DNA from: Xestospongia bergquistia
Taxonomy: Eukaryota; Porifera; Demospongiae; Haplosclerida; Petrosiidae
DNA: 64,000 nt
NCBI GenBank assembly: GCA_963965975.1
Contig: OZ014425.1
Coordinates: 5,001 to 69,000, forward strand
Reading direction: 5' to 3'
Shown here: positions 18,066-61,100 of the stretch, piece after piece
How the letters are laid out: the number at the start of each line of letters is the position of its first letter
How positions within the stretch are numbered: the stretch's first letter is position 1
Notes under the pieces: model-generated
Database searches by the model: none
Seen by the model: the letters and a program-made list of their open reading frames with translations, nothing else
What the model was told of the DNA's origin: nothing
Program-made: the position numbers and the translations under genes

Positions 18066-21000
18066 TAAAGAGAGACTACCAGCCCTATTCTCTAGCCGAC
18101 CTTTGGGATACTCCAAAGAGTAGGCTGGTAACCATCTCAGAGGTCTGATGCATTGCAGAACACTGGCCCACAACACACTGGCAATCACAACTTTTTTAGT
18201 TTCTTTATATATGTACTGAAATTGTCTTCATGCTCTTGTGGGGCGCCTATGAATCTCATTAACGATAACTGACCAGCAATGGTCAACTAAATTGGCTGTT
18301 TAAATAATTAAAGCTATAAGAAACTATATTTTTTTTTAAGGGACAAGAATAAACTCATCCTATTTATGCAGGAACCGGGCCCCACAAATACACCAGCCTC
18401 ATCTCGCTTAAAGAGAGACTACCAGCCCTATTCTCTAGCCGGCCTTTGGGACACTCCAAAGACTAGACTGGTAGCCATCTCAGAGGTCTGATGCATTGCA
18501 GAACGCTGGCCCACAAGACACTGGCAATCACTACTGTTTAGTTTCTTTATATATGTACTGAAGATTGTCTTCATGCTCTTGTGGGGCGCCTATGAACCTC
18601 ATTAACGATAACAGACCAACAATGGTCAACTAAATTGGCTGTTTAAATAATTAAAACTATATTTTTTTAAGGGACAAGAATAAACTCATCCTATTTATGC
18701 AGGAACCGGGCCCCACAAATACACCAGCCTCGTCTCCATAAAGAGAGACTACCAGCCCTATTCTCCAGCCGGCCTTTGGGATACTCCAAAGGGTAGGCTT
18801 GTAACCATCTCAGAGGTCTGATGCATTGCAGAACACTGGCCCACAAGACACTGGCAATCACAACTGTTTTATTTTCTTTTATATATATATGTACTGAAGA
18901 TTGTCTTCATGCTCTTGTGGGGCGCCCATGAATCTCATTAACGATAACTGACCAGCAATTGTCAACTAAATTGGCTGTTGAAATAATTAAAACTATAAGA
19001 AACTATATTTTTTAAGGGACAAGAATAATCTCATCCTATTTATGTAGGAACCGGGCCCCACAAATTCACCAACCTCATCTCCATAAAGAGAGACTACCAG
19101 CCCTATTCTCTAGCCGACCTTTGGGATACTCCAAAGAGTAGGCTGGTAACCATCTCAGAGGTCTGATGCATTGCAGAACAATGGCCCACAACACACTGGC
19201 AATCACAACTTTTTTAGTTTCTTTATATATGTACTGAAATTGTCTTCATGCTCTTGTGGGGCGCCTATGAATCTCATTAACGATAACTGACCAGCAATGG
19301 TCAACTAAATTGGCTGTTGAAATAATTAAAACTATAAGAAACTATATTTTTTTAAGGGACAAGAATAATCTCATCCTATTTATGCAGGAACCGGGCCCAA
19401 CAAATTCACCAACCTCATCTCCATAAAGAGAGACTACCAGCCCTATTCTCTAGCCGACCTTTGGGATACTCCAAAGAGTAGGCTGGTAACCATCTCAGAG
19501 GTCTGATGCATTGCAGAACACTGGCCCACAACACACTGGCAATCACAACTCTTTTAGTTTCTTTATATATGTACTGAAATTGTCTTCATGCTCTTGTGGG
19601 GCGCCTATGAATCTCATTAACGATAACTGAAAAGCAATGGTCAACTAAATTGGCTGTTGAAATAATTAAAACTATAAGAAACTATATTTTTTTAAGGGAC
19701 AAGAATAATCTCATCCTATTTATGCAGGAACCGGGCCCCACAAATTCACCAACCTCATCTCCCTATTCTCTAGCCGACCTTTGTGATACTCCAAAGAGTA
19801 GGCTGGTAACCATCTCAGAGGTCTGATGCATTGCAGAACGCTGGCCCACAAGACACTGGCAATCACAACTGTTTAGTTTCTTTATATATGTACTGAAGAT
19901 TGTCTTCATGCTCTTGTGGGGTGCCTACGAATCTCATTAACGATAACAGACCAACAATGGTCAACTAAATTGGCTGTTTAAATAATTAAAACTATATTTT
20001 TTTAAGGGACAAGAATAAACTCATCCTATTTATGTAGGAACCGGGCCCCACAGATACACCAGCCTCATCTCCATAAAGAGAGACTACCAGCCCTATTCTC
20101 TAGCCGGCCTTTGGGACACTCCAAAGACTAGGCTGGTAGCCATCTCAGAGGTCTGATGCATTGCAGAACGCTGGCCCACAAGACACTGGCAATCACAACT
20201 GTTTAGTTTCTTTATATATGTACTGAAAATTGTCTTCATGCTCTTGTGGGGCGCCTATGAATCTCATTAACGATAACAGACCAACAATGGTCAACTAAAT
20301 TGGCTGTTTAAATAATTAAAACTATATTTTTTTAAGGGACAAGAATAAACTCATCCTATTTATGTAGGATCCGGGCCCCACAAATACACCAGCCTCATCT
20401 CCATAAAGAGAGACTACCAGCCCTATTCTCCAGCCGGCCTTTGGGATACTCCAAAGAGTAGGCTGGTAACCATCTCAGAGTTCTGATGCATTGCAGAACA
20501 CTGGCAATCACAACCGTTTTAGTTTGTTTATATATGTACTGAAGATTGTCTTCATGCTCTAGTGGGGCACCTATGAATCTCATTAACGATAACAGACCAG
20601 CAATGGTCAACTAAATTTGCTGTTTAAATAATTACAACTATAAGAAACTATATTTTTTTAAGGGACAAGAATAAACTCATCCTATTTATGCAGGAACCGG
20701 GCCCCACAAATACACCAGCCTCATCTCCATAAAGAGAGACTACCAGCCCTATTCTCTAGCCGTCCTTTGGGATACTCCAAAGAGTAGGCTTGTAACCATC
20801 TCAGAGGTCTGATGCATTGCAGAACACTGGCCCACAACACACTGGCAATCACAACTGTTTAATTTTCTTTATATATGTACTGAAGATTGTCTTCATGCTC
20901 TTGTGGGGCGCCTATGAATCTCATTAACGATAACTGACCAGCAATGGTCAACTAAATTGGCTGTTGAAATAATTAAAACTATAAGAAACTATATTTTTTT

Positions 21001-24000
21001 AAGGGACAAGAATAATCTCATCCTATTTATGCAGGAACCGGGCCCAACAAATTCACCAACCTCATCTCCATAAAGAGAGACTACCAGCCCTATTCTCTAG
21101 CCGACCTTTGGGATACTCCAAAGAGTAGGCTGGTAACCATCTCAGAGGTCTGATGCATTGCAGAACATTGGCCCACAACACACTGGCAATCACAACTTTT
21201 TTAGTTTCTTTATATATGTACTGAAATTGTCTTCATGCTCTTGTGGGGCGCCTATGAATCTCATTAACGATAACTGACCAGCAATGGTCAACTAAATTGG
21301 CTGTTGAAATAATTAAAACTATAAGAAACTATATTTTTTTAAGGGACAAGAATAAACTCATCCTATTTATGTAGGATCCGGGCCCCACAAATACACCAGC
21401 CTCATCTCCATAAAGAGAGACTACCAGCCCTATTCTCCAGCCGGCCTTTGGGATACTCCAAAGAGTAGGCTGGTAACCATCTCAGAGTTCTGATGCATTG
21501 CAGAACACTGGCAATCACAACCGTTTTAGTTTGTTTATATATGTACTGAAGATTGTCTTCATGCTCTAGTGGGGCACCTATGAATCTCATTAACGATAAC
21601 AGACCAGCAATGGTCAACTAAATTTGCTGTTTAAATAATTACAACTATAAGAAACTATATTTTTTTAAGGGACAAGAATAAACTCATCCTATTTATGCAG
21701 GAACCGGGCCCCACAAATACACCAGCCTCATCTCCATAAAGAGAGACTACCAGCCCTATTCTCTAGCCGTCCTTTGGGATACTCCAAAGAGTAGGCTTGT
21801 AACCATCTCAGAGGTCTGATGCATTGCAGAACACTGGCCCACAAAACACTGGCAATCACAACTGTTTAATTTTCTTTATATATGTACTGAAGATTGTCTT
21901 CATGCTCTTGTGGGGCGCCTATGAATCTCATTAACGATAACTGACCAGCAATGGTCAACTAAATTGGCTGTTGAAATAATTAAAACTATAAGAAACTATA
22001 TTTTTTTAAGGGACAAGAATAATCTCATCCTATTTATGCAGGAACCGGGCCCAACAAATTCACCAACCTCATCTCCATAAAGAGAGACTACCAGCCCTAT
22101 TCTCTAGCCGACCTTTGGGATACTCCAAAGAGTAGGCTGGTAACCATCTCAGAGGTCTGATGCATTGCAGAACATTGGCCCACAACACACTGGCAATCAC
22201 AACTTTTTTAGTTTCTTTATATATGTACTGAAATTGTCTTCATGCTCTTGTGGGGCGCCTATGAATCTCATTAACGATAACTGACCAGCAATGGTCAACT
22301 AAATTGGCTGTTGAAATAATTAAAACTATAAGAAACTATATTTTTTTAAGGGACAAGAATAATCTCATCCTATTTATGCAGGAACCGGGCCCCACAAATT
22401 CACCAACCTCATCTCCCTATTCTCTAGCCGACCTTTGTGATACTCCAAAGAGTAGGCTGGTAACCATCTCAGAGGTCTGATGCATTGCAGAACGCTGGCC
22501 CACAAGACACTGGCAATCACAACTGTTTAGTTTCTTTATATATGTACTGAAGATTGTCTTCATGCTCTTGTGGGGTGCCTACGAATCTCATTAACGATAA
22601 CAGACCAACAATGGTCAACTAAATTGGCTGTTTAAATAATTAAAACTATATTTTTTTAAGGGACAAGAATAAACTCATCCTATTTATGTAGGAACCGGGC
22701 CCCACAAATACACCAGCCTCATCTCCATAAAGAGAGACTACCAGCCCTATTCTCTAGCCGGCCTTTGGGACACTCCAAAGACTAGGCTGGTAGCCATCTC
22801 AGAGGTCTGATGCATTGCAGAACGCTGGCCCACAAGACACTGGCAATCACAACTGTTTAGTTTCTTTATATATGTACTGAAAATTGTCTTCATGCTCTTG
22901 TGGGGCGCCTATGAATCTCATTAACGATAACAGACCAACAATGGTCAACTAAATTGGCTGTTTAAATAATTAAAACTATATTTTTTTAAGGGACAAGAAT
23001 AAACTCATCCTATTTATGTAGGAACCGGGCCCCACAAATTCACCAACCTCATCTCCCTATTCTCTAGCCGACCTTTGTGATACTCCAAAGAGTAGGCTGG
23101 TAACCATCTCAGAGGTCTGATGCATTGCAGAACGCTGGCCCACAAGACACTGGCAATCACAACTGTTTAGTTTCTTTATATATGTACTGAAGATTGTCTT
23201 CATGCTCTTGTGGGGTGCCTACGAATCTCATTAACGATAACAGACCAACAATGGTCAACTAAATTGGCTGTTTAAATAATTAAAACTATATTTTTTTAAG
23301 GGACAAGAATAAACTCATCCTATTTATGTAGGAACCGGGCCCCACAAATACACCAGCCTCATCTCCATAAAGAGAGACTACCAGCCCTATTCTCTAGCCG
23401 GCCTTTGGGACACTCCAAAGACTAGGCTGGTAGCCATCTCAGAGGTCTGATGCATTGCAGAACGCTGGCCCACAAGACACTGGCAATCACAACTGTTTAG
23501 TTTCTTTATATATGTACTGAAAATTGTCTTCATGCTCTTGTGGGGCGCCTATGAATCTCATTAACGATAACAGACCAACAATGGTCAACTAAATTGGCTG
23601 TTTAAATAATTAAAACTATATTTTTTTAAGGGACAAGAATAAACTCATCCTATTTATGTAGGATCCGGGCCCCACAAATACACCAGCCTCATCTCCATAA
23701 AGAGAGACTACCAGCCCTATTCTCCAGCCGGCCTTTGGGATACTCCAAAGAGTAGGCTGGTAACCATCTCAGAGTTCTGATGCATTGCAGAACACTGGCA
23801 ATCACAACCGTTTTAGTTTGTTTATATATGTACTGAAGATTGTCTTCATGCTCTAGTGGGGCACCTATGAATCTCATTAACGATAACAGACCAGCAATGG
23901 TCAACTAAATTTGCTGTTTAAATAATTACAACTATAAGAAACTATATTTTTTTAAGGGACAAGAATAAACTCATCCTATTTATGCAGGAACCGGGCCCCA

Positions 24001-25870
24001 CAAATACACCAGCCTCATCTCCATAAAGAGAGACTACCAGCCCTATTCTCTAGCCGTCCTTTGGGATACTCCAAAGAGTAGGCTTGTAACCATCTCAGAG
24101 GTCTGATGCATTGCAGAACACTGGCCCACAACACACTGGCAATCACAACTGTTTAATTTTCTTTATATATGTACTGAAGATTGTCTTCATGCTCTTGTGG
24201 GGCGCCTATGAATCTCATTAACGATAACTGACCAGCAATGGTCAACTAAATTGGCTGTTGAAATAATTAAAACTATAAGAAACTATATTTTTTTAAGGGA
24301 CAAGAATAATCTCATCCTATTTATGCAGGAACCGGGCCCAACAAATTCACCAACCTCATCTCCATAAAGAGAGACTACCAGCCCTATTCTCTAGCCGACC
24401 TTTGGGATACTCCAAAGAGTAGGCTGGTAACCATCTCAGAGGTCTGATGCATTGCAGAACATTGGCCCACAACACACTGGCAATCACAACTTTTTTAGTT
24501 TCTTTATATATGTACTGAAATTGTCTTCATGCTCTTGTGGGGCGCCTATGAATCTCATTAACGATAACTGACCAGCAATGGTCAACTAAATTGGCTGTTG
24601 AAATAATTAAAACTATAAGAAACTATATTTTTTTAAGGGACAAGAATAATCTCATCCTATTTATGCAGGAACCGGGCCCCACAAATTCACCAACCTCATC
24701 TCCCTATTCTCTAGCCGACCTTTGTGATACTCCAAAGAGTAGGCTGGTAACCATCTCAGAGGTCTGATGCATTGCAGAACGCTGGCCCACAAGACACTGG
24801 CAATCACAACTGTTTAGTTTCTTTATATATGTACTGAAGATTGTCTTCATGCTCTTGTGGGGTGCCTACAAATCTCATTAACGATAACAGACCAACAATG
24901 GTCAACTAAATTGGCTGTTTAAATAATTAAAACTATATTTTTTTAAGGGACAAGAATAAACTCATCCTATTTATGTAGGAACCGGGCCCCACAAATACAC
25001 CAGCCTCATCTCCATAAAGAGAGACTACCAGCCCTATTCTCCAGCCGGCCTTTGGGATACTCCAAAGAGTAGGCTGGTAACCATCTCAGAGTTCTGATGC
25101 ATTGCAGAACACTGGCAATCACAACTGTTTTAGTTTCTTTATATATGTACTGAAGATTGTCTTCATGCTCTAGTGGGGCACCTATGAATCTCATTAACGA
25201 TAACAGACCAGCAATGGTCAACTAAATTGGCTGTTGAAATAATTAAAACTATAAGAAACTATATTTTTTTAAGGGACAAGAATAATCTCATCCTATTTAT
25301 GCAGGAACCGGGCCCCACAAATTCACCAACCTCATCTCCCTATTCTCTAGCCGACCTTTGTGATACTCCAAAGAGTAGGCTGGTAACCATCTCAGAGGTC
25401 TGATGCATTGCAGAACATTGGCCCACAACACACTGGCAATCACAACTTTTTTAGTTTCTTTATATATGTACTGAAATTGTCTTCATGCTCTTGTGGGGCG
25501 CCTATGAATCTCATTAACGATAACTGACCAGCAATGGTCAACTAAATTGGCTGTTTAAATAATTACAACTATATTTTTTTTAAGGGACAAGAATAAACTC
25601 ATCCTATTTATGTAGGAACCGGGCCCCACAAATACACCAGCCTCATCTCCATAAAGAGAGACTACCAGCCCTATTCTCTAGCCGGCCTTTGGGATACTCC
25701 AAAGAGTAGGCTGGTAACCATCTCAGAGGTCTGATGCATATGTACTGAAGATTGTCTTCATGCTCTTCTGGGGCGCCTATGAATCTCATTAACGATAACT
25801 GACCACCAATGGTCAACTAAATTGGCTGTTTAAATAATTAAAACTCTATAAGAAACTATATTTTTTAAGA
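18066..25870. repeat. Satellite family S2, long block with mixed higher-order order of variants
   Basis: More than 20 S2 monomers lie head to tail. Recognisable variants are A (CTCCAGCCGG, GAGTTCTGATG, lacking the GCCCACAA segment; starts near 20400, 21407, 23694, 25011), B (CTCTAGCCGTCC), C (CTCTAGCCGACC with AACATTGGCCC), D (ATCTCCCTATTC, lacking the AAAGAGAGACTACCAGCC start and reading CTTTGTGATAC) and E (GGGACACTCC, GACTAGG). From about 19.76 kb the order reads D E A B C A B C D E D E A B C D A D', then a final monomer with an internal deletion near 25739. This mosaic points to repeated unequal exchange of multi-monomer blocks. Confidence 0.9.
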
Positions 25871-52343: not shown

Positions 52344-52480
52344 TGACGTAATTTGACATTTAGTGGAAGAGAAAGAAGCAATCCTATTGGTTGATTGACG
52401 TGTGATCCTTAGTACTCCGAGAATAACGACCAAATATGGTAAGTCATTAATAATGTAATTGACTGCGAGAATATAAAAAG
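52344..52480 (+). promoter_or_regulatory. Promoter of mini-gene copy 1 (CRE-like, inverted CCAAT, TATA)
   Basis: TGACGTAA at 52344-52351, CCTATTGG (inverted CCAAT box) near 52383, TGACGTG near 52394 and TATAAAAA at 52473-52480. The same elements recur in units 2 and 3 with TATA boxes at 54813 and 57153. The housekeeping genes of the window show no such TATA box, so these mini-genes look regulated or inducible. Confidence 0.55.
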
Positions 52481-52657
52481 GGAAAGAGTTTTGGTAGCGT
52501 TAGCAAAAAGTTTTGGTAGCGTTAGCAAAAAGCGATTGAAGAGAAGAAAGTCTCTATCAATAAAAAGTATTTCAACATTAAAGAAAGTACTCAAGTGAGG
52601 AGATTACGTTGATGTTACCTAATGTCATATTGCTTGATTTATTATAGGTAGATAAAG

Positions 52658-53145
52658 ATGTGTCATAAGGTGATATTGATTACATCAATGCTTAAATAAC
52701 ATAATTCTATTGATATGTAGTGCTCTGTTAGCGGATGTAGCACACCAGAAAATGGTGTCAAAACTAGCAACTCTTGGTATACGTGTAGACAGACACATAC
52801 GTTTTGCAAAAGTCATCAACAAAGAAGTCATTGTCCCGAACATCCCAGATCTGGTCATACATGACAAACATTAATTAAAAACCCTAACTTTCCCTTTTTG
52901 TAATAGTATAACATTTTAAATAGTGTCTTCATATGTGATAGGTTACTTATGGTAGAAATGTTTACTTACTTTATGTATTACAACATTTTTTACAGACTTT
53001 GAACACTCCATGTGAAGGTTGTGGTAAATCAGTCAATGTTAAAAGATACATAATATTTACATGTCTACTAGCTCATCATCTATGTGAGAACTGTTCTAAT
53101 AGTCAAGTCTGTCCTCTTCATCCAAGGGATAAAAGAAGAGTTTAA
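52658..53145 (+). CDS. Cys/His-rich mini-gene copy 1 with alternative terminal exons A and B
   Basis: I do not recognise a named family. A short start exon (52658-52669, MCHK) follows a non-coding 5' exon. It can be joined across GT-AG introns, in the same phase, to exon A (52721-52864) or to exon B (52996-53145); each ends in its own stop. Exon A encodes CSVSGCSTP..WYTCRQTHTFCKSHQQRSHCPEHP-type sequence with spacing C-x4-C-x15-C-x6-C-x2-H-x5-C-x2-H. Exon B encodes CEGCGKSV..IFTCLLAHHLCENCSNSQVCPLHP-type sequence, C-x2-C-x13-C-x6-C-x2-C-x5-C-x2-H. The two modules share the (Y/F)TC-x6-C-x2-(H/C)-x5-CP-x-H core, so they are probably exon duplicates forming zinc-binding folds. No signal peptide or membrane segment is seen. 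Exon A here is strongly diverged from copies 2 and 3. Confidence 0.6.
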
Positions 53146-53368
53146 TGTCATCAGAAAAAACACTCTATACATTGCAGTACTTCCTATATGTTGCAGTACT
53201 TCCTATATGTTGCATTACTCTCTATGTGTTGCACTACTCTACAAATTGCAGTTCTAGTACTCTATGTTGTGATATACAGTATTATATTAAGTCTTTTGTA
53301 CTTTGTGCTATTTAATCAAATGTTTTTGGCAAGAACTCTTATTATTTCATAAAATGAATTTTTGAACA

Positions 53369-54305
53369 TTAAATTCCTTTATATTTTTTCCAAGCTCTTT
53401 GAATAGTAATAGCAGCTTTAATACATTGTCTAATATGAGTCGCTCTTGCTTTTTGGTGTTGTAAAGCTGTTGTGTAATGTTTTTCACCTGTCTCTCTTGA
53501 TAAACTGATATTAATAGTTTTATCCTCAGGTGGTATTCCCATATCTTCATTACCAGTCCTGGTACCAGTCTGAATGTAAGGACTAGTCATAGTCATAATT
53601 CTATTTTAATATTATGCTTAGTCTTCATTTCCAGTTTTCACAATGGTTTAAATTTTAGTTGTGATGTCCTCATTTCCAATTCTGGTACCAGTCTGTGTCT
53701 TATGACTGACCTTAGCAACCATAGTAGTAGGTGGGGTAGATGTGTTATTGGATTGTTTTCCATCTTTTAAAGAATGTAATATAACATCTCTTAATACAAA
53801 CAAGCATTCTTGAAATTTAACAGAAGTATTAATCCCTACATTGAATGAGGACAGTTCCTTAATTAATTACCAAATAATAATCAATAATTACCTGCAGCAA
53901 CAGGATTATGTAATCGTCCATGTAGAAATTCATATAACACTTTATGACAAAGAGTCTTATCTTCTGATGTCAAAATCTGGTTACTCTCCTGGTAATTATT
54001 ATCTTAATAACTAAATAATTATTATAATATAGTTATACCTCATTACATTGAACATGTGATAGTTTGTTTTCAAGTTCTGATATTTTTCTTTCAACTGACG
54101 AATAATTGCTTTGTCATCAAGTTCTTCATTATGTCTAATAAAAGAGACATGATCACATGATAATCATGTGACATAAATGTACCTGGCTTTATTAGAAATA
54201 CATGCCACTTGCTGTACAAATCAACAAGTTGATATTGTCTCAAACATATTGTTTTGTTCAGCAGACACAGTAGCTACCAATATTAACTCCTAAGCTGTCT
54301 CGTAA
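53369..54305 (-). pseudogene. Decayed 3' fragment of KIF6 (copy 1)
   Basis: Minus-strand homology to the KIF6 gene at 58189-61324. It has the IQ-motif tail (CIKAAITIQRAWKKYKG), TQTGTRTGNED repeats, the FQECLFVLRDVILHSLKD-like exon, the EFLHGRLHNPVAAG exon, the coiled-coil exons and a remnant of the last motor exon ending near 54305. About 1.1 kb of the parent (the HSGKDPLS repeat region) is deleted. Several in-frame stops occur (for example in ATTTAA and GACTAA near 53620-53660). The fragment has no start and no motor domain. Confidence 0.85.
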
Positions 54306-54812
54306 ATGATACAGTAAAATTAGAAACCATTACATATAATGATGATATATCACTTATTAAAGAGTAATATCTGAATCTCTTTCATTTAATGAACCATTCA
54401 GTAATAATAATTGTTGTTGCTATGTTGTCTACTGATAATTCTACTACATGCTGACAGTGCAGCTGACTAAGGCATATAATATTACAATACACCCATTATG
54501 ATTGTTATCTGCTGACGCTAAATTCTCTCTTGATAACAAATGTTAGTGATTGATAAGATAAACACGAAGTTCAGCACATTATGTACTTCCCCAGGGATAG
54601 TCCCCTACACAAGTCATATGAGCTATACTTTATCCGATAAAATACTATGAATATATTTATAACAAGTATAACATAGTGCTACAGTGACGTAATTTGACAT
54701 TTAGTGGAAGAGAAAGAAGCAATCCTATTGGTTGATTGACGTGTGATCCTTAGTGCTCCGAGAATAACGACCAAATATGGTAAGTCATTAATAATGTAAT
54801 TGACTGCGAGAA

Positions 54813-54820
54813 TATAAAAA
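54813..54820 (+). promoter_or_regulatory. TATA box of mini-gene copy 2
   Basis: TATAAAAA with the same upstream CRE-like and inverted-CCAAT elements as copy 1 (within 54680-54760). Confidence 0.55.
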
Positions 54821-54955
54821 GGGAGAGTTTTGGTAGCGTTAGCAAAAAGCGTTTGAACAGTGTCAAAAGTTATATCGATAGAAAGTATTACTCAAGTAAG
54901 GAGGTTAAGTTTATATATTACATGTTAAATGCTGGTTTATTGCAGGTAGAACAAA

Positions 54956-55448
54956 ATGGATAATCCTCAGGTGATTCTTTAATTATAGCAAATGCTTATA
55001 ACATACATTGATTTATATAGTGCTCTGTTAGAAACTGTCGTACACCTGACAGTCGTGTCCAAAGTGGAAAACCTTATACATGTGAAGTTAAACATGATTT
55101 CTGCCATAGTCATCGAAATAAAGACTATTGTCCTAAACATCACAGCTCTCCTCGCAAAAAATAGCAATCCTTTGATTGCAAACCCTAACTCTTTCCCTTT
55201 TTGTAATAGTATAACATTTTAAATAGTGTCTTCGTATGTGATAGGTTACTTATGGTAGAAATGTTTACTTACTTTATGTATTACAACATTTTTTACAGGC
55301 TTTGAACACTCCATGTGAAGGTTGTGGTAAATCAGTCAATGTTAAAAGATACATAATATTTACATGTCTACTAGCTCATCATCTATGTGAGAACTGTTCT
55401 AATAGTCAAGTCTGTCCTCTTCATCCAAGGGATAAAAGAAGAGTTTAA
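54956..55448 (+). CDS. Cys/His-rich mini-gene copy 2 with alternative terminal exons A and B
   Basis: Start exon 54956-54970 (MDNPQ), exon A 55021-55164 and exon B 55299-55448. Isoform A is 52 aa: CSVRNCRTP, then GKPYTCEVKHDFCHSHRN, then DYCPKHHSSPRKK, a basic protein with C-x4-C-x14-C-x6-C-x2-H-x5-C-x2-H spacing. Isoform B is 54 aa and identical to copies 1 and 3 except for the first exon-B residue (GCT, Ala, instead of ACT, Thr). The A stop codon lies before any usable donor, so A and B are best read as alternative last exons rather than consecutive exons. The function is unknown. Isoform A carries five basic residues (three Arg, two Lys) that are neutral or acidic in copy 3. Confidence 0.6.
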
Positions 55449-55698
55449 TGTCATCAGTTCTACTACAACAACACTCTATACATTGCAGTACTTTCTATAC
55501 ATTGCAGTACTTCCTATATGTTGCAGTACTTCCTATATGTTGCATTACTCTCTATGTGTTGCACTACTCTACAAATTGCAGTTCTAGTACTCTATGTTGT
55601 GATATACAGTATTATATTAAGTCTTTTGTACTTTGTGCTATTTAATCAAATGTTTTTGGCAAGAACTCTTATTATTTCATAAAATGAATTTTTGAACA

Positions 55699-56644
55699 TT
55701 AAATTCCTTTATATTTTTTCCAAGCTCTTTGAATAGTAATAGCAGCTTTAATACATTGTCTAATACGAGTCACTCTTGCTTTTTGGTGTTGTAAAGCTGT
55801 TGTGTAATGTTTTTCACCTGTCTCTCTTGATAAACTGATATTAATAGTTTTATCCTCAGGTGACTGAGGTATTCCCATATCTTCATTACCAGTCCTGGTA
55901 CCAGTCTGAATGTAAGGACTAATCATAGTCATAATTCTATTTTAATATTATGCTTAGTCTTCATTTCCAGTTTTCACAATGGTTTAAATTTTAGTTGTGA
56001 TGTCCTCATTTCCAATTCTGGTACCAGTCTGTGTCTTATGACTGACCTTAGCAACCATCGTAGTAGTAGGTGGGGTAGATGTGTTATTGGATTGTTTTCT
56101 ATCTTTTAAAGAATGTAATATAACATCTCTTAATACAAACAAGCATTCTTGAAATTTAACAGAAGTATTAATTCCTACATTGAATGAGGACAGCTCCTTA
56201 ATTAGTTACCTAATAATAATCAATAATTACCTGCAGCAACAGGGTTATGTAATCGTCCATGTAGAAATTCATATAACACTTTATGACAAAGAGTCTTATC
56301 TTCTGATGTCAAAATCTGGTTACTCTCCTGGTAATTATTATCTTAATAACTAAATAATTATTATAATATAGTTATACCTCATTACATTGAACATGTGATA
56401 GTTTGTTTTCAAGTTCTGATATTTTTCTTTCAACTGACGAATAATTGCTTTGTCATCAAGTTCTTCATTATGTCTAATAAAAGAGACATGATCACATGAT
56501 AATCATGTGACATAAATGTACCTGGCTTTATTAGAAATACATGCCACTCGATGTACAAATCAACAAGTTGATACTGTCTCAAACATATTGTTTTGTTCAG
56601 CAGACACAGTAGCTACCAATATTAACTCCTAAGCTGTCTCGTAA
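55699..56644 (-). pseudogene. Decayed 3' fragment of KIF6 (copy 2)
   Basis: Same structure as the copy-1 fragment: IQ-motif tail, repeat remnants with the same in-frame stops (ATTTAA, GACTAA), the same internal deletion and truncation at the same point in the last motor exon (near 56644). Shared lesions mean fragments 1 and 2 descend from one already broken copy. Compared with fragment 1 it keeps a GDxGIPQSPEDK-type insertion that also occurs in the parent gene. Confidence 0.85.
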
Positions 56645-57152
56645 ATGATACAGTAAAATTAAAAACCATTACATATAATGATGATATATCACTTTATTAA
56701 AGAGTAACATCTGAATCTCTTTCATTTAATGAACCATTCAGTAATAATAATTGTTGTTGCTATGTTGTCTACTGATAATTCTACTACATGCTGACAGTGC
56801 AGCTGACTAAGGCATATAATGTTACAATACACCCATTATGATTGTTATCTGCTGACGCTAAATTCTCTCTTGATAACAAATGTTGGTGATTGATAAGATA
56901 AACACGACGTTCAGCACATTATGTACTTCCCCAGGGATATTCCCCTACACAAGTCATATGAGCTATACTTTATCCGATAACATACTATGAATATATTTAT
57001 AACAAGTATAACATAGTGCTACAGTGACGTAATTTGACATTTAGTGGAAGAGAAAGAAGCAATCCTATTGGTTGATTGACGTGTGATTCTTAGTGCTCCG
57101 AGAATAACGACCAAATATGGTAAGTCATTAATAATGTAATTGACTGCGAGAA

Positions 57153-57160
57153 TATAAAAA
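57153..57160 (+). promoter_or_regulatory. TATA box of mini-gene copy 3
   Basis: TATAAAAA in the same context as copies 1 and 2. Confidence 0.55.
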
Positions 57161-57297
57161 GGGAAAGAGTTTTGGTAGCGTTAGCAAAAAGCGTTTGAAC
57201 AGTGTCAAAAGTTATATCGATAGAAAGTATTACTCAAGTAAGGAGGTTAAGTTTATATATTACATGTTAAATGCTGGTTTATTGCAGGTAGAACAAA

Positions 57298-57790
57298 ATG
57301 GGTAATTCTCAGGTGATTCTTTAATTATAGCAAATGCTTATATCATACATTGATTTATATAGTGCTCTGTTAGCAACTGTAGTACACCTGACAGTTGTGT
57401 CCAAAGTGGAAAACCTTATACATGTGAAGTTGAACATGTATTCTGCTATAATCATCGAATTAAAGACTATTGTCCTGAACATCACAGCTCTCCTCGCAAA
57501 AAATAGCAATCCTTTGATTGCAAACCCTAACTCTTTCCCTTTTTGTAATAGTATAACATTTTAAATAGTGTCTTCGTATGTGATAGGTTACTTATGGTAG
57601 AAATGTTTACTTACTTTATGTATTACAACATTTTTTACAGACTTTGAACACTCCATGTGAAGGTTGTGGTAAATCAGTCAATGTTAAAAGATACATAATA
57701 TTTACATGTCTACTAGCTCATCATCTATGTGAGAACTGTTCTAATAGTCAAGTCTGTCCTCTTCATCCAAGGGATAAAAGAAGAGTTTAA
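57298..57790 (+). CDS. Cys/His-rich mini-gene copy 3 with alternative terminal exons A and B
   Basis: Start exon 57298-57312 (MGNSQ), exon A 57363-57506 and exon B 57641-57790. Isoform A (52 aa) reads CSVSNCSTP, GKPYTCEVEHVFCYNHRI, DYCPEHHSSPRKK. It keeps every Cys and His of the inferred zinc ligand set but differs from copy 2 at 9 exon-A codons and 2 start-exon codons, all amino-acid-changing. Exon B is identical to copy 1. A 19-bp minisatellite starts about 30 bp after the exon B stop. The function is unknown. Confidence 0.6.
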
Positions 57791-57821
57791 TGTCATCACT
57801 TCTACTACAAAAACACTCTAT

Positions 57822-58067
57822 ACATTGCAGTACTTTCTATACATAGCAGTACTTTCTATATGTTGCAGTACTTTCTATACATTGCAGTACTTTCTATATG
57901 TTGCAGTACTTTCTATACATTGCAGTACTTTCTATATGTTGCAGTACCTTCTATATGTTGCAGTACTTTCTATACATTGCAGTACTTTCTATATGTTGCA
58001 GTACTTTCTATATGTTGCAGTACTTTCTATACATTGCAGTACTTTCTATGTGTTGCAGTACTCTCTA
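57822..58067. repeat. 19-bp minisatellite, about 13 units
   Basis: Units alternate between ACATTGCAGTACTTTCTAT and ATGTTGCAGTACTTTCTAT. The orthologous positions after exon B in copies 1 (about 53164-53238) and 2 (about 55480-55575) have only a few units. Each unit contains a pyrimidine-rich tract followed by TTGCAG, a 3' splice-site-like string on the plus strand. Confidence 0.9.
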
Positions 58068-58188: not shown

Positions 58189-61100
58189 TTAAATTCTTTT
58201 ATATTTTTTCCAAGCTCTTTGAATAGTAATAGCAGCTTTAATACATTGTCTAATACGAGTCACTCTTGCCTTTTGTTGTTGTAAAGCTGTTGTGTAATGT
58301 TTTTCACCTGTCTCTCTTGATAAACTGATGTTAATAATTTTATCCTCAGGTGACTGAGGTATTCCCATATCTTCATTCCCAGTCCTGGTACCAGTCTGAG
58401 TCTTAGGACTAATCATAGTCATAGTTCCAGTTTTAATATTACTCTTAGTAGTTATATCCTCATTTCCAGTTTTCATAATGGTTTGAATTTTAGGAGTGAT
58501 GTCCTCATTTCCAGTCCTGGTACCAGTCTGTGTCTTATGACTGACCTTACTAGTAGGTGTGGTAGATGTGCTTTGTAGTAATTGATACTTAAGAGTTGCT
58601 AGACGATGACGTGTTGCAGTTTCTTTTAGTTCAAGTTGCTTTTCAAGCTGAGAGAGGCGTAATTGGTTAATCTTGTCTTGTATCTGGTCATATTACAGTA
58701 ATAATAGTGCCATATTAACAATACTATTGTACCTCATGTCCTCCAGTGACTTGTAGAGGTCCATTTGAAGGACTTTTATTTGATTTTACTATTTCAAGAG
58801 AACGACGACTCTCAGATAATTTTTGTATTAATTTACTCTATAAATAATAAAATAAAAATTGATTTCAAAAGATAAACTCTTACTTCTTTTAATTTGAGTT
58901 GTTGTTCTACTAATTTTTCTTTAATGATGTCATCCATTGTTGCTCCAGCAGGATTCTTTTCTAGACTCACAACTCTAGTATGTTGAGCTGAAAGTTGTTC
59001 AGAGACTAGACTCAATTCATAGCTATTATAACACATTCAACTATTATTTAATGTAATATATATAATGTACTTACTTTAACTGGTTTACTTGTAACTGAAG
59101 TTTTAAACATGTTACATTATCTTCTAAAAATTGTCTCTCCATTTCCAAAGCAATCTCTTTCTCAGGACTTGTTGAAGAAATATGTCCTCTATTTGATGAA
59201 TGTTTACCTGTACCAGAATGAGATGAGAGTGGGTCTTTACTAGCATGAACTGAGAGTGAGTCTTTACCAGAATGAGATGAGAGTGAGTCTTTACCAGAGT
59301 GAGATGAGGGGTTATCTTTACCAGAATGAGGTGAGAGTGGGTCTTTACCAGAATGAGGTGAGAGTGGGTCTTTACCAGAGTGAAGTGGCTGGTGATTACT
59401 GGAATGAGGTAAGCGCTTAGAGTGAGATGAGCAATGATCATTAACATAGAGTTGATCTTTAGTGTGAGATGACCACTGATGAGGTGAGAGTTGAGGCAAA
59501 TGTTGATCAATTGAATTATTAGATTGAAGTGTATGTTGCTCTCTTTTAAATTTAATTGGAGATTTAAGAGATGTACTAGATTTAGTTGGAACTATTTTAG
59601 TATCCTCTTTGGTCTCTTCTTCATGCAAACTCACAAAGCCACTACTATAATTAGATGATAAATTGGATTGCTTTCTATCTTTTAAAGCATGTAATATAAC
59701 ATCTCTTAATACAAACAAGCATTCTTGAAATTTAACAGAAGTATTAATCCCTACATTGAATGAGGACAGCTCCTTAATTAGTTACCTAATAATAATCAAT
59801 AATTACCTGCAGCAACAGGGTTATGTAATCGTCCATGTAGAAATTCATATAACACTTTATGACAAAGAGTCTTATCTTCTGATGTCAAAATCTGGTTACT
59901 CTCCTGGTAATTATTATATTAATAACTAAATAATTATTATAATATAGTTATACCTCATTACATTGAACATGTGATAGTTTATTTTCAAGTTCTGATATTT
60001 TTTCTTTCAACTGACGAATAATTGCTTTGTCATCAAGTTCTTCATTACGTCTAATAAAAGAGACATGGTCACATGATAATCATGTGACATAAATGTACCT
60101 GGCTTTATTAGAAATACATGCAACTCGCTGTGCAAATCGACAAGTTGATACTGTCTCAAACATATTTTTTTGTTCAGCAGACACAGTAGCTATCATAGCA
60201 GTCACACAATTACCTCCTAAGCTATCTCGTAACACCATTGTTAATAAAGAGTTACGATAGGGGACAAACCCACGGCTGGCACAACGACTAGTTGGCCTGA
60301 CATCTTGTAGACTATGACTTTGTCTTTGAAGTGTAACTATAACATGTTCTAAATGATGAAGTGATAAATTTATATATTTAGCTTCTTCTAAAATCTGTCC
60401 ATCGACTCTAGTTTTAGCAACTCTTTCTGATCCAGCTAAATCTACCAGATTAAGTTTAGATCTACAACAACAGACAATGTTAGCAACATCTATTATGTTG
60501 TATTAATGTACCTAATTCTTGTATCAGATCCATGTTGTTGAGCTGTTAACATTAATGTAAATATTGTGTGAGAACGTGAAGAGCTAGCATTCATAACTGT
60601 TTCAGCTACTTTACGACAAGTGCTTCCCTATGTATAAAAATTAATTACACACATGATTATAGGAGTATACCTCAAATAATAGATTAAGTGCTACTTGTTC
60701 AGTTGTAGCTAAATGAATTGACAAATTTTTAACATGAATTTCTCCATTTAGTCCTTCAGTTACTTTGACCTATAACAAAGATATTAATAGTATAGTTAAA
60801 TGGAGTAACATTACTTTGGGTAAGGCAGTACTTAGAGTGGCTGTTCTGCTGGCAGGATTTAATAGATCATAACCAGTATCTTGATAAATTTCCATGTAAG
60901 AAATATGTAAGGTGATATCTTCATTAATTTGTCTCTCCTCAATAGCCTTATATATAGTGGAGATAACTCGAGGTATCAACCCACGCTCATTATAATATCG
61001 TGCACTACCTTCAATAGTATATGTTTTACCAGATGCAGTTTGTCCATATGCAAATATCGTACCATTATAGCCCTCCAAAAACTTGTCTACTATATGTTTA

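Follow-up and report, generated by a model that had tools for sequence, protein, structure and literature searches.

Organization of the tandem array

The window, i.e. the whole 64-kb stretch of sponge DNA that was analyzed, corresponds to C15:5001–69000 of a 146-Mb, 21-contig assembly, which was also the genome searched in this work; the sequence that precedes it (C15:1–5000) consists entirely of N in the copy used. The GC content of the window is 30–41% in 4-kb steps, its introns are about 50 bp long, and it contains SIAH-, TRAF- and CSTF2-like and kinesin animal genes. In these respects the window agrees with the genome of the sponge Amphimedon queenslandica, which is described as compact, with 64.2% AT, in the available portion of its report (PMC4773876). 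A block that reads like TPKSRLVTISE in translation is repeated within 20448–25418, at about 20.4, 21.5, 23.7, 25.1, and 25.4 kb.

Our analyses have identified in this window a tandem of three units, each about 2.34 kb long, and every unit carries a mini-gene on the plus strand and a piece of the tail of the neighbouring kinesin gene on the minus strand. The gene models of this array were read from the sequence, and the elements follow one another in the same order in each unit, viz. a TATAAA motif (at 52472, 54813, and 57153 for copies 1, 2, and 3), a predicted 5′UTR exon that lacks an ATG (exon 0), intron 0 (50–53 bp), a start micro-exon of 22–25 nt that carries the ATG, intron 1 (50–51 bp), exon A (144 nt including the stop codon), a putative intron 2, and exon B (150 nt including the stop codon). 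The start exon is in phase with exon A and also with exon B, and the two predicted proteins (isoforms A and B) would be about 51–54 residues long, each with one cross-brace-like Cys/His module.

In copy 2, the promoter region (54361–54811, plus strand, as for all of the mini-gene features) corresponds to homologous sequence upstream of the other two copies. The start micro-exon, recognized by translation and by comparison of the copies, lies at 54946–54970 (10 nt of 5′UTR followed by MDNPQ) and is followed by the 50-bp intron 1 (54971–55020) and by exon A (55021–55164; CSVRNC...RKK, stop TAG). A putative intron 2 of 96 bp (55203–55298) extends from the 3′UTR of exon A to exon B and has the form GTAATAGT...TTTTTTACAG in all three copies, with its counterparts in copies 1 and 3 at 52900–52995 and 57545–57640; exon B itself (55299–55448), which we infer to be an alternative in-phase terminal exon, shows 0–1 differences among the three copies. 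The start micro-exon of copy 1 (52648–52669; ATG at 52658, MCHK) was predicted from splice motifs and translation, its exon A (52721–52864, stop TGA) was located by tblastn and the genome search, and its exon B (52996–53145) is a sequence-based model. The same kinds of evidence place the start micro-exon of copy 3 (MGNSQ) at 57288–57312, its exon A at 57363–57506 (genome search and comparison with copy 2), and its exon B at 57641–57790.

Partial copies of the kinesin-gene tail are found on the minus strand at 53355–54279 in unit 1, where they were recognized from the direct repeats D3, D5, and D6 and from translation, and at 55685–56618 in unit 2. Both are truncated and lack the middle part of the tail, and since open stretches remain in them, chimeric or short kinesin-tail transcripts from these two units are possible. 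A 27-bp tandem repeat of about 6.4 copies, with repeats like SHSGKDPLS, lies in the kinesin tail frame at 59211–59383. Each unit also contains a 19-bp minisatellite behind exon B (53165–53252, 55475–55582, and 57817–58067, the last annotated on the plus strand), whose copy number rises from unit 1 to unit 3, where it reaches 13.2 copies.

Replacement differences between copies 2 and 3

An earlier note on this DNA held that copies 2 and 3 differ in isoform A by replacement changes only, and our base-by-base recount of exon A reproduces its figures, viz. 10 differing bases in 9 codons, which change R/S, R/S, R/C, K/E, D/V (2 bases), H/Y, S/N, N/I, and K/E (copy 2/copy 3), together with D/G and P/S in the start exon. 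None of the 11 codons concerned keeps its residue; the stricter wording that no synonymous change is present needs qualification, as the D/V codon (GAT/GTA) requires two steps, one of which may be synonymous along one path, and counts as 0.5 synonymous difference under the NG86 method. Intron 1 and exon B differ at 1 of 50 and 1 of 150 positions, respectively, as had been reported. The eight putative Cys/His ligands of exon A (C1, C6, C21, H25, C28, H31, C37, and H40) are identical in all three copies, and the net charge of isoform A (K+R minus D+E) is +6 in copy 2, +1 in copy 3, and +4 in copy 1. When the 10 exon-A differences are polarized at the base level by copy 1, an outgroup that is itself 35% diverged, copy 2 carries the derived base at three, by which it gained two R and one K, copy 3 carries it at another three, and four are not assignable.

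Near-identical tandem units are hard to assemble, and sequencing errors or collapsed haplotypes might have created the exon A differences. However, the 12 coding differences keep the reading frame and the ligands and are concentrated in coding bases, and the units also differ in minisatellite length and in their kinesin parts. We therefore consider an artefact of this kind to be very improbable.

Mosaic divergence along the units

The divergence between the units changes abruptly along their length. In the promoter region the three copies differ at 10 (copies 1 and 2), 9 (copies 1 and 3), and 7 (copies 2 and 3) of 451 positions, and the identity of copy 1 to copies 2 and 3 is about 98% here and 99–100% in exon B. 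Between these stretches lies a divergence island of copy 1 of about 350 bp (52530–52890, plus strand; the edges are approximate and were drawn from comparison of the copies), which spans part of the 5′UTR exon, intron 0, the start exon, intron 1, exon A, and the start of the 3′UTR. In steps of 60 columns, copy 1 is 31–48% different from copies 2 and 3 in the core of the island and 18–22% different at its edges, and the flanks are mostly 97–100% identical. For copies 1 and 2, the differences amount to 19/50 in intron 0, 18/46 in intron 1, 50/144 in exon A, and 1/150 in exon B; for copies 2 and 3, they amount to 10/144 in exon A, 1/100 in introns 0 and 1 together, and 0/134 in the stretch between exons A and B. 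The order of relatedness is different again in the kinesin part, where units 1 and 2 differ at 3 of 467 positions compared and units 2 and 3 at 35 of 464. From these jumps in divergence, different stretches of the units seem to be of different ages, which is a sign of exchange between the units; local exchange has probably homogenized the flanks and spared exon A.

Recent point mutation is an unlikely source of the island, given that copies 1 and 2 are 35% different in exon A, 38% in intron 0, and 0.6% in the linked kinesin part. The island was more probably either spared by conversion or imported from a diverged allele or copy. First-look searches, whose results are lower bounds, found no donor of it elsewhere in the genome, and searches of the same lower-bound kind found no exon-A copies in the genome beyond these three.

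Balancing selection on a small target usually leaves a peak of divergence between flat flanks, and the copies might be ancient balanced alleles of one ancestral gene that were set side by side by unequal crossing over between haplotypes. The sharp peak that separates copy 1 from copies 2 and 3, with near-identical flanks on both sides, and the failure of the first-look searches to find a donor are consistent with this proposal, as is the fact that units 1 and 2 are closest in the kinesin part, which makes it unlikely that their exons A diverged in place. However, the one assembly searched showed no second haplotype of the locus, and conversion between old paralogs fits these observations equally well. 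We regard the balanced-allele proposal as unlikely; it is a special form of the explanation that we prefer below, and the odds of the two overlap.

Identity and constraint of the Cys/His module

Exons A and B can be aligned with each other, and seven columns (C, C, H, C, C, P, and H) are invariant in the six aligned sequences. The ligand columns defined by exon B are all kept (7/7) between copy 1 and copies 2 and 3, although the residues match at just 19 and 21 of 43 positions, and the chance of such retention is P = 0.0016 and 0.0036. Because these columns are kept despite the low identity, the isoform A proteins look constrained rather than dead.

The array-1 proteins and a relative at 83 kb (described below) have no Pfam match over the cut-off. 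In the order of its ligands exon A resembles the AN1-type zinc finger (PF01428), for which characteristic spacing is C-x2-4-C-x9-12-C-x1-2-C-x4-C-x2-H-x5-H-x-C, but this spacing was found in none of the five proteins tried. The AN1 profile gives E = 0.0044 (17.6 bits) for exon A of copy 2 and E = 0.085 (13.4 bits) for copy 3, both short of the gathering score of 27.9 bits, and gives no match for copy 1; exon A is not among the eight AN1 matches over the cut-off elsewhere in the genome. Unlike the RING finger (C3HC4), exon A has C-x4-C and more His. The RING ligand pattern occurs in none of the five proteins, and two of them, isoform B and the 83-kb relative, show RING-like spacing only when His is allowed as the final ligand. 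No RING family exceeds its curated cut-off for the isoforms or for the 83-kb relative, whose weak profile matches are to zf-RING_14 (E = 0.023) and Prok-RING_4 (E = 0.04). Isoform B has weak Pfam matches, all under the cut-off, to zf-C2HC_2 (E = 0.0029), DUF1272 (E = 0.011), and zf_Tbcl_2 (E = 0.015). None of the PDB profile matches (21 in one search and 1 in another) was better than E = 0.05, and these weak matches were disregarded; AlphaFold, applied to exon A of copy 2 with a six-row alignment, yielded no folded model (mean pLDDT 41.9). On its sequence the motif is thus best described as a cross-brace-like Cys/His pattern between the AN1 and RING types that fails the tests of both, and its binding of zinc is putative.

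A hydrophobic N-terminal stretch was not found by hydropathy, and because the predicted exon 0 also has no ATG, the product looks intracellular. The recognition or self/non-self role that had been suggested for the protein finds no direct support in this anatomy, and a role in conflict is speculative.

A second array and other relatives

A search with exon B led to two further genes on the minus strand of the same contig, at C15:77.0–77.1 and 83.6–83.7 kb, which flank a second array (C15:76993–83760, minus strand) situated 8–15 kb beyond the window. These flanking exon-B-type genes have a single module and share 96.8% identity across about 185 bp, and no similarity was detected in the surrounding sequence. 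Between them are five Cys/His genes of a like general design, four of which have two modules per protein according to hand-made models. The recurrence of a design similar to that of array 1 at C15:77–84 kb is counted in favour of the reading proposed below.

Exons also outdiverge introns in the two gene pairs of this second array that were compared; an alignment of units c and d was discarded, as their two 1500-bp windows overlap on the chromosome. For genes c and f, the contrast is significant for exon 2 (p = 3e-4) and for exons 2 and 3 together (p = 3.5e-5); for genes d and e, with in-frame boundaries, p is 0.10–0.11 for exon 2 alone and 0.003–0.004 for exons 2 and 3. However, dN/dS is below 1 in all 12 exon comparisons (0.04–0.97, the lowest values reflecting saturation), and the c2/f2 comparison combines a pS of 0.83 with a pN of 0.30. 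The second array thus has the appearance of old divergence with conserved or homogenized introns and not of omega above 1, which tells against reading an exon/intron contrast alone as a sign of positive selection.

Among public predicted proteins, a search with profile A1 recovered one relative (P0001, of the exon-B type), and 5 of the 16 candidates recovered with profile A2 are relatives of the second array (P0002–P0006); these six metagenome proteins represent further variants of the relatives. No homologues of isoform A alone were found among the predicted proteins, a set in which an exon without a start codon would be missed. In P0002, P0004, and P0005, nine columns are variable in residues 1–38 and four in residues 39–69. 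By eye, P0006 corresponds to gene d (C15:80360–80542) with a frame change in mid-sequence, and this frame change suggests that broken variants exist. The viral contigs scanned contained no relatives; the single locus from the scan of genome contigs (L028), a match of 11 residues within a Mycobacterium contig, was treated as a chance match, and weak genome matches on C2 (E = 0.033) and on C8 (E = 2.6) were also obtained. Our literature search, which covered few subscription journals, found no description of this family or its like.

Evidence for selection on exon A

The coding sequence of isoform A differs between copies 2 and 3 at 12 of 156 positions, compared with 8 of 779 noncoding positions of the unit (54361–55298; Fisher p = 1.2e-5) and 1 of 234 adjacent noncoding positions (p = 1.1e-4). 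When the 22 differences are rotated with their clustering preserved, the observed value is reached in 10 of 1097 rotations, a count that takes in the unrotated arrangement. The excess of exon A over linked DNA is real, and the replacement rate of isoform A exceeds that of linked DNA, but this strong contrast is probably confounded by conversion.

The codon-based evidence is less decisive. The probability of finding no synonymous change among 12 is 0.065, 0.039, and 0.029 for kappa of 1, 2, and 3. Nonsynonymous sites differ in excess of synonymous sites plus the enclosed intron 1 (p = 0.005–0.011), and the coding excess within the cluster over intron 1 alone has p = 0.07. The NG86 omega is 4.6 for copies 2 and 3, 1.01 for copies 1 and 2, and 0.83 for copies 1 and 3. 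Over 43 codons, a set that leaves out the extra Trp codon of copy 1 and the codons past 43, a likelihood ratio test for omega above 1 on the branches of copies 2 and 3 gives a one-sided p of 0.049 with the branch omega at its upper bound, and a single omega over the three copies is 0.90, which is not different from 1. On codons alone, the support for selection on the pair of copies 2 and 3 is borderline, and this pair was chosen post hoc out of the 64-kb window. Outside the eight exon-A ligands, pN and pS are 0.40 and 0.35 for copies 1 and 2, and 0.39 and 0.40 for copies 1 and 3, as neutral drift outside the ligands predicts for the old split.

These results may also be explained without selection for diversity. 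Exon A may be free to change outside its ligands, conversion of the flanks alone may inflate the contrast with linked DNA, sequence heterology may block conversion within an island once it has diverged, and the lack of synonymous differences between copies 2 and 3 may be due to luck, for which a probability of 0.03–0.065 leaves some room. An omega near 1 for the split of copy 1 from copies 2 and 3, the inclusion of UTR and introns in the copy-1 island, and the high synonymous divergence that accompanies the exon excess in the second array all accord with such a neutral history. However, a difference of only 7% between the exons A of copies 2 and 3 is in our judgement too small for a strong block to conversion, and the excess of nonsynonymous over silent change inside the cluster is also against it. 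A neutral history is a serious possibility, although we hold it to be less likely than not.

The earlier note had inferred strong diversifying selection. The exon A excess and the retention of the ligands on which it relied are confirmed, and its strength is not borne out, with borderline codon tests and an omega of 0.90 over the three copies. Its use of intron and flank divergence as a neutral yardstick is open to doubt, since in these mosaic units that divergence has itself probably been shaped by exchange between copies, and intron divergence is in general an unsafe yardstick in tandem arrays. Diversifying selection on exon A is plausible and moderately supported, and is not proven from three copies.

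Proposed origin and function of the array

The diversity of exon A in this tandem array most likely results from selection for different versions acting together with exchange between the units, a reading to which we assign a probability of roughly 0.5. Exchange, by gene conversion or unequal crossing over, would keep the promoter, exon B, and much of the 3′ flank near-identical, and exon A would escape it and carry diverged versions. In the history of exon A, copy 1 would then have separated from copies 2 and 3 long ago, and copies 2 and 3 would have diverged recently by replacements only, with selection favouring different versions.

The best reading of the products is that of a lineage-restricted family of intracellular-looking Cys/His microproteins in which a variable exon escapes concerted evolution. 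We think it most likely that the module binds a variable partner inside the cell. A constant zinc-like scaffold would present loop residues and charge that meet this partner, for which a microbial or selfish-element protein is a candidate, and exon B would supply a constant isoform. In its most specific form, which we consider improbable, the array would be part of a lineage-restricted, highly polymorphic intracellular microprotein system of a sponge, in which exon A is kept variable by diversifying or balancing selection and exon B constant by concerted evolution, as a minimal variable/constant pair directed against microbes or selfish elements.

Comparison with known systems

When tandem duplicates diverge in their exons only, this is a classic mark of conflict, with examples in venoms, plant resistance genes, and MHC. 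The present mini-gene encodes only about 52 residues, is found in a sponge, and has a built-in control in the similar but invariant exon B of the same gene; if confirmed, it would provide a very small natural system in which gene conversion can be separated from selection. Venom toxins, like the mini-gene products, are encoded by tandem Cys-rich genes with conserved Cys; the toxins are secreted, whereas the mini-gene products have no signal-like N terminus, as judged by hydropathy only.

In snake venom toxins, according to the available portion of a report on accelerated exon evolution (ASSET; PMC2711939), exon segments differ profoundly, introns are more than 85% similar, and the exon changes alter charge and surface. 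Copies 2 and 3 of the mini-gene resemble the toxins, as portrayed there, in their diverged exons, similar introns, and altered charge, whereas the copy-1 island, unlike the toxin pattern, also covers introns and UTR. A second parallel is the RPP8 family of NLR genes in Arabidopsis, in which, according to the part of the report available (PMC6771003), intergenic gene conversion and selection for diversity have acted together on the tandem duplicates. The RPP8 products, as described in that part, are large NLR proteins with hypervariable sites in the LRR, whereas the mini-gene products have about 52 residues and no Pfam domain over the cut-off.
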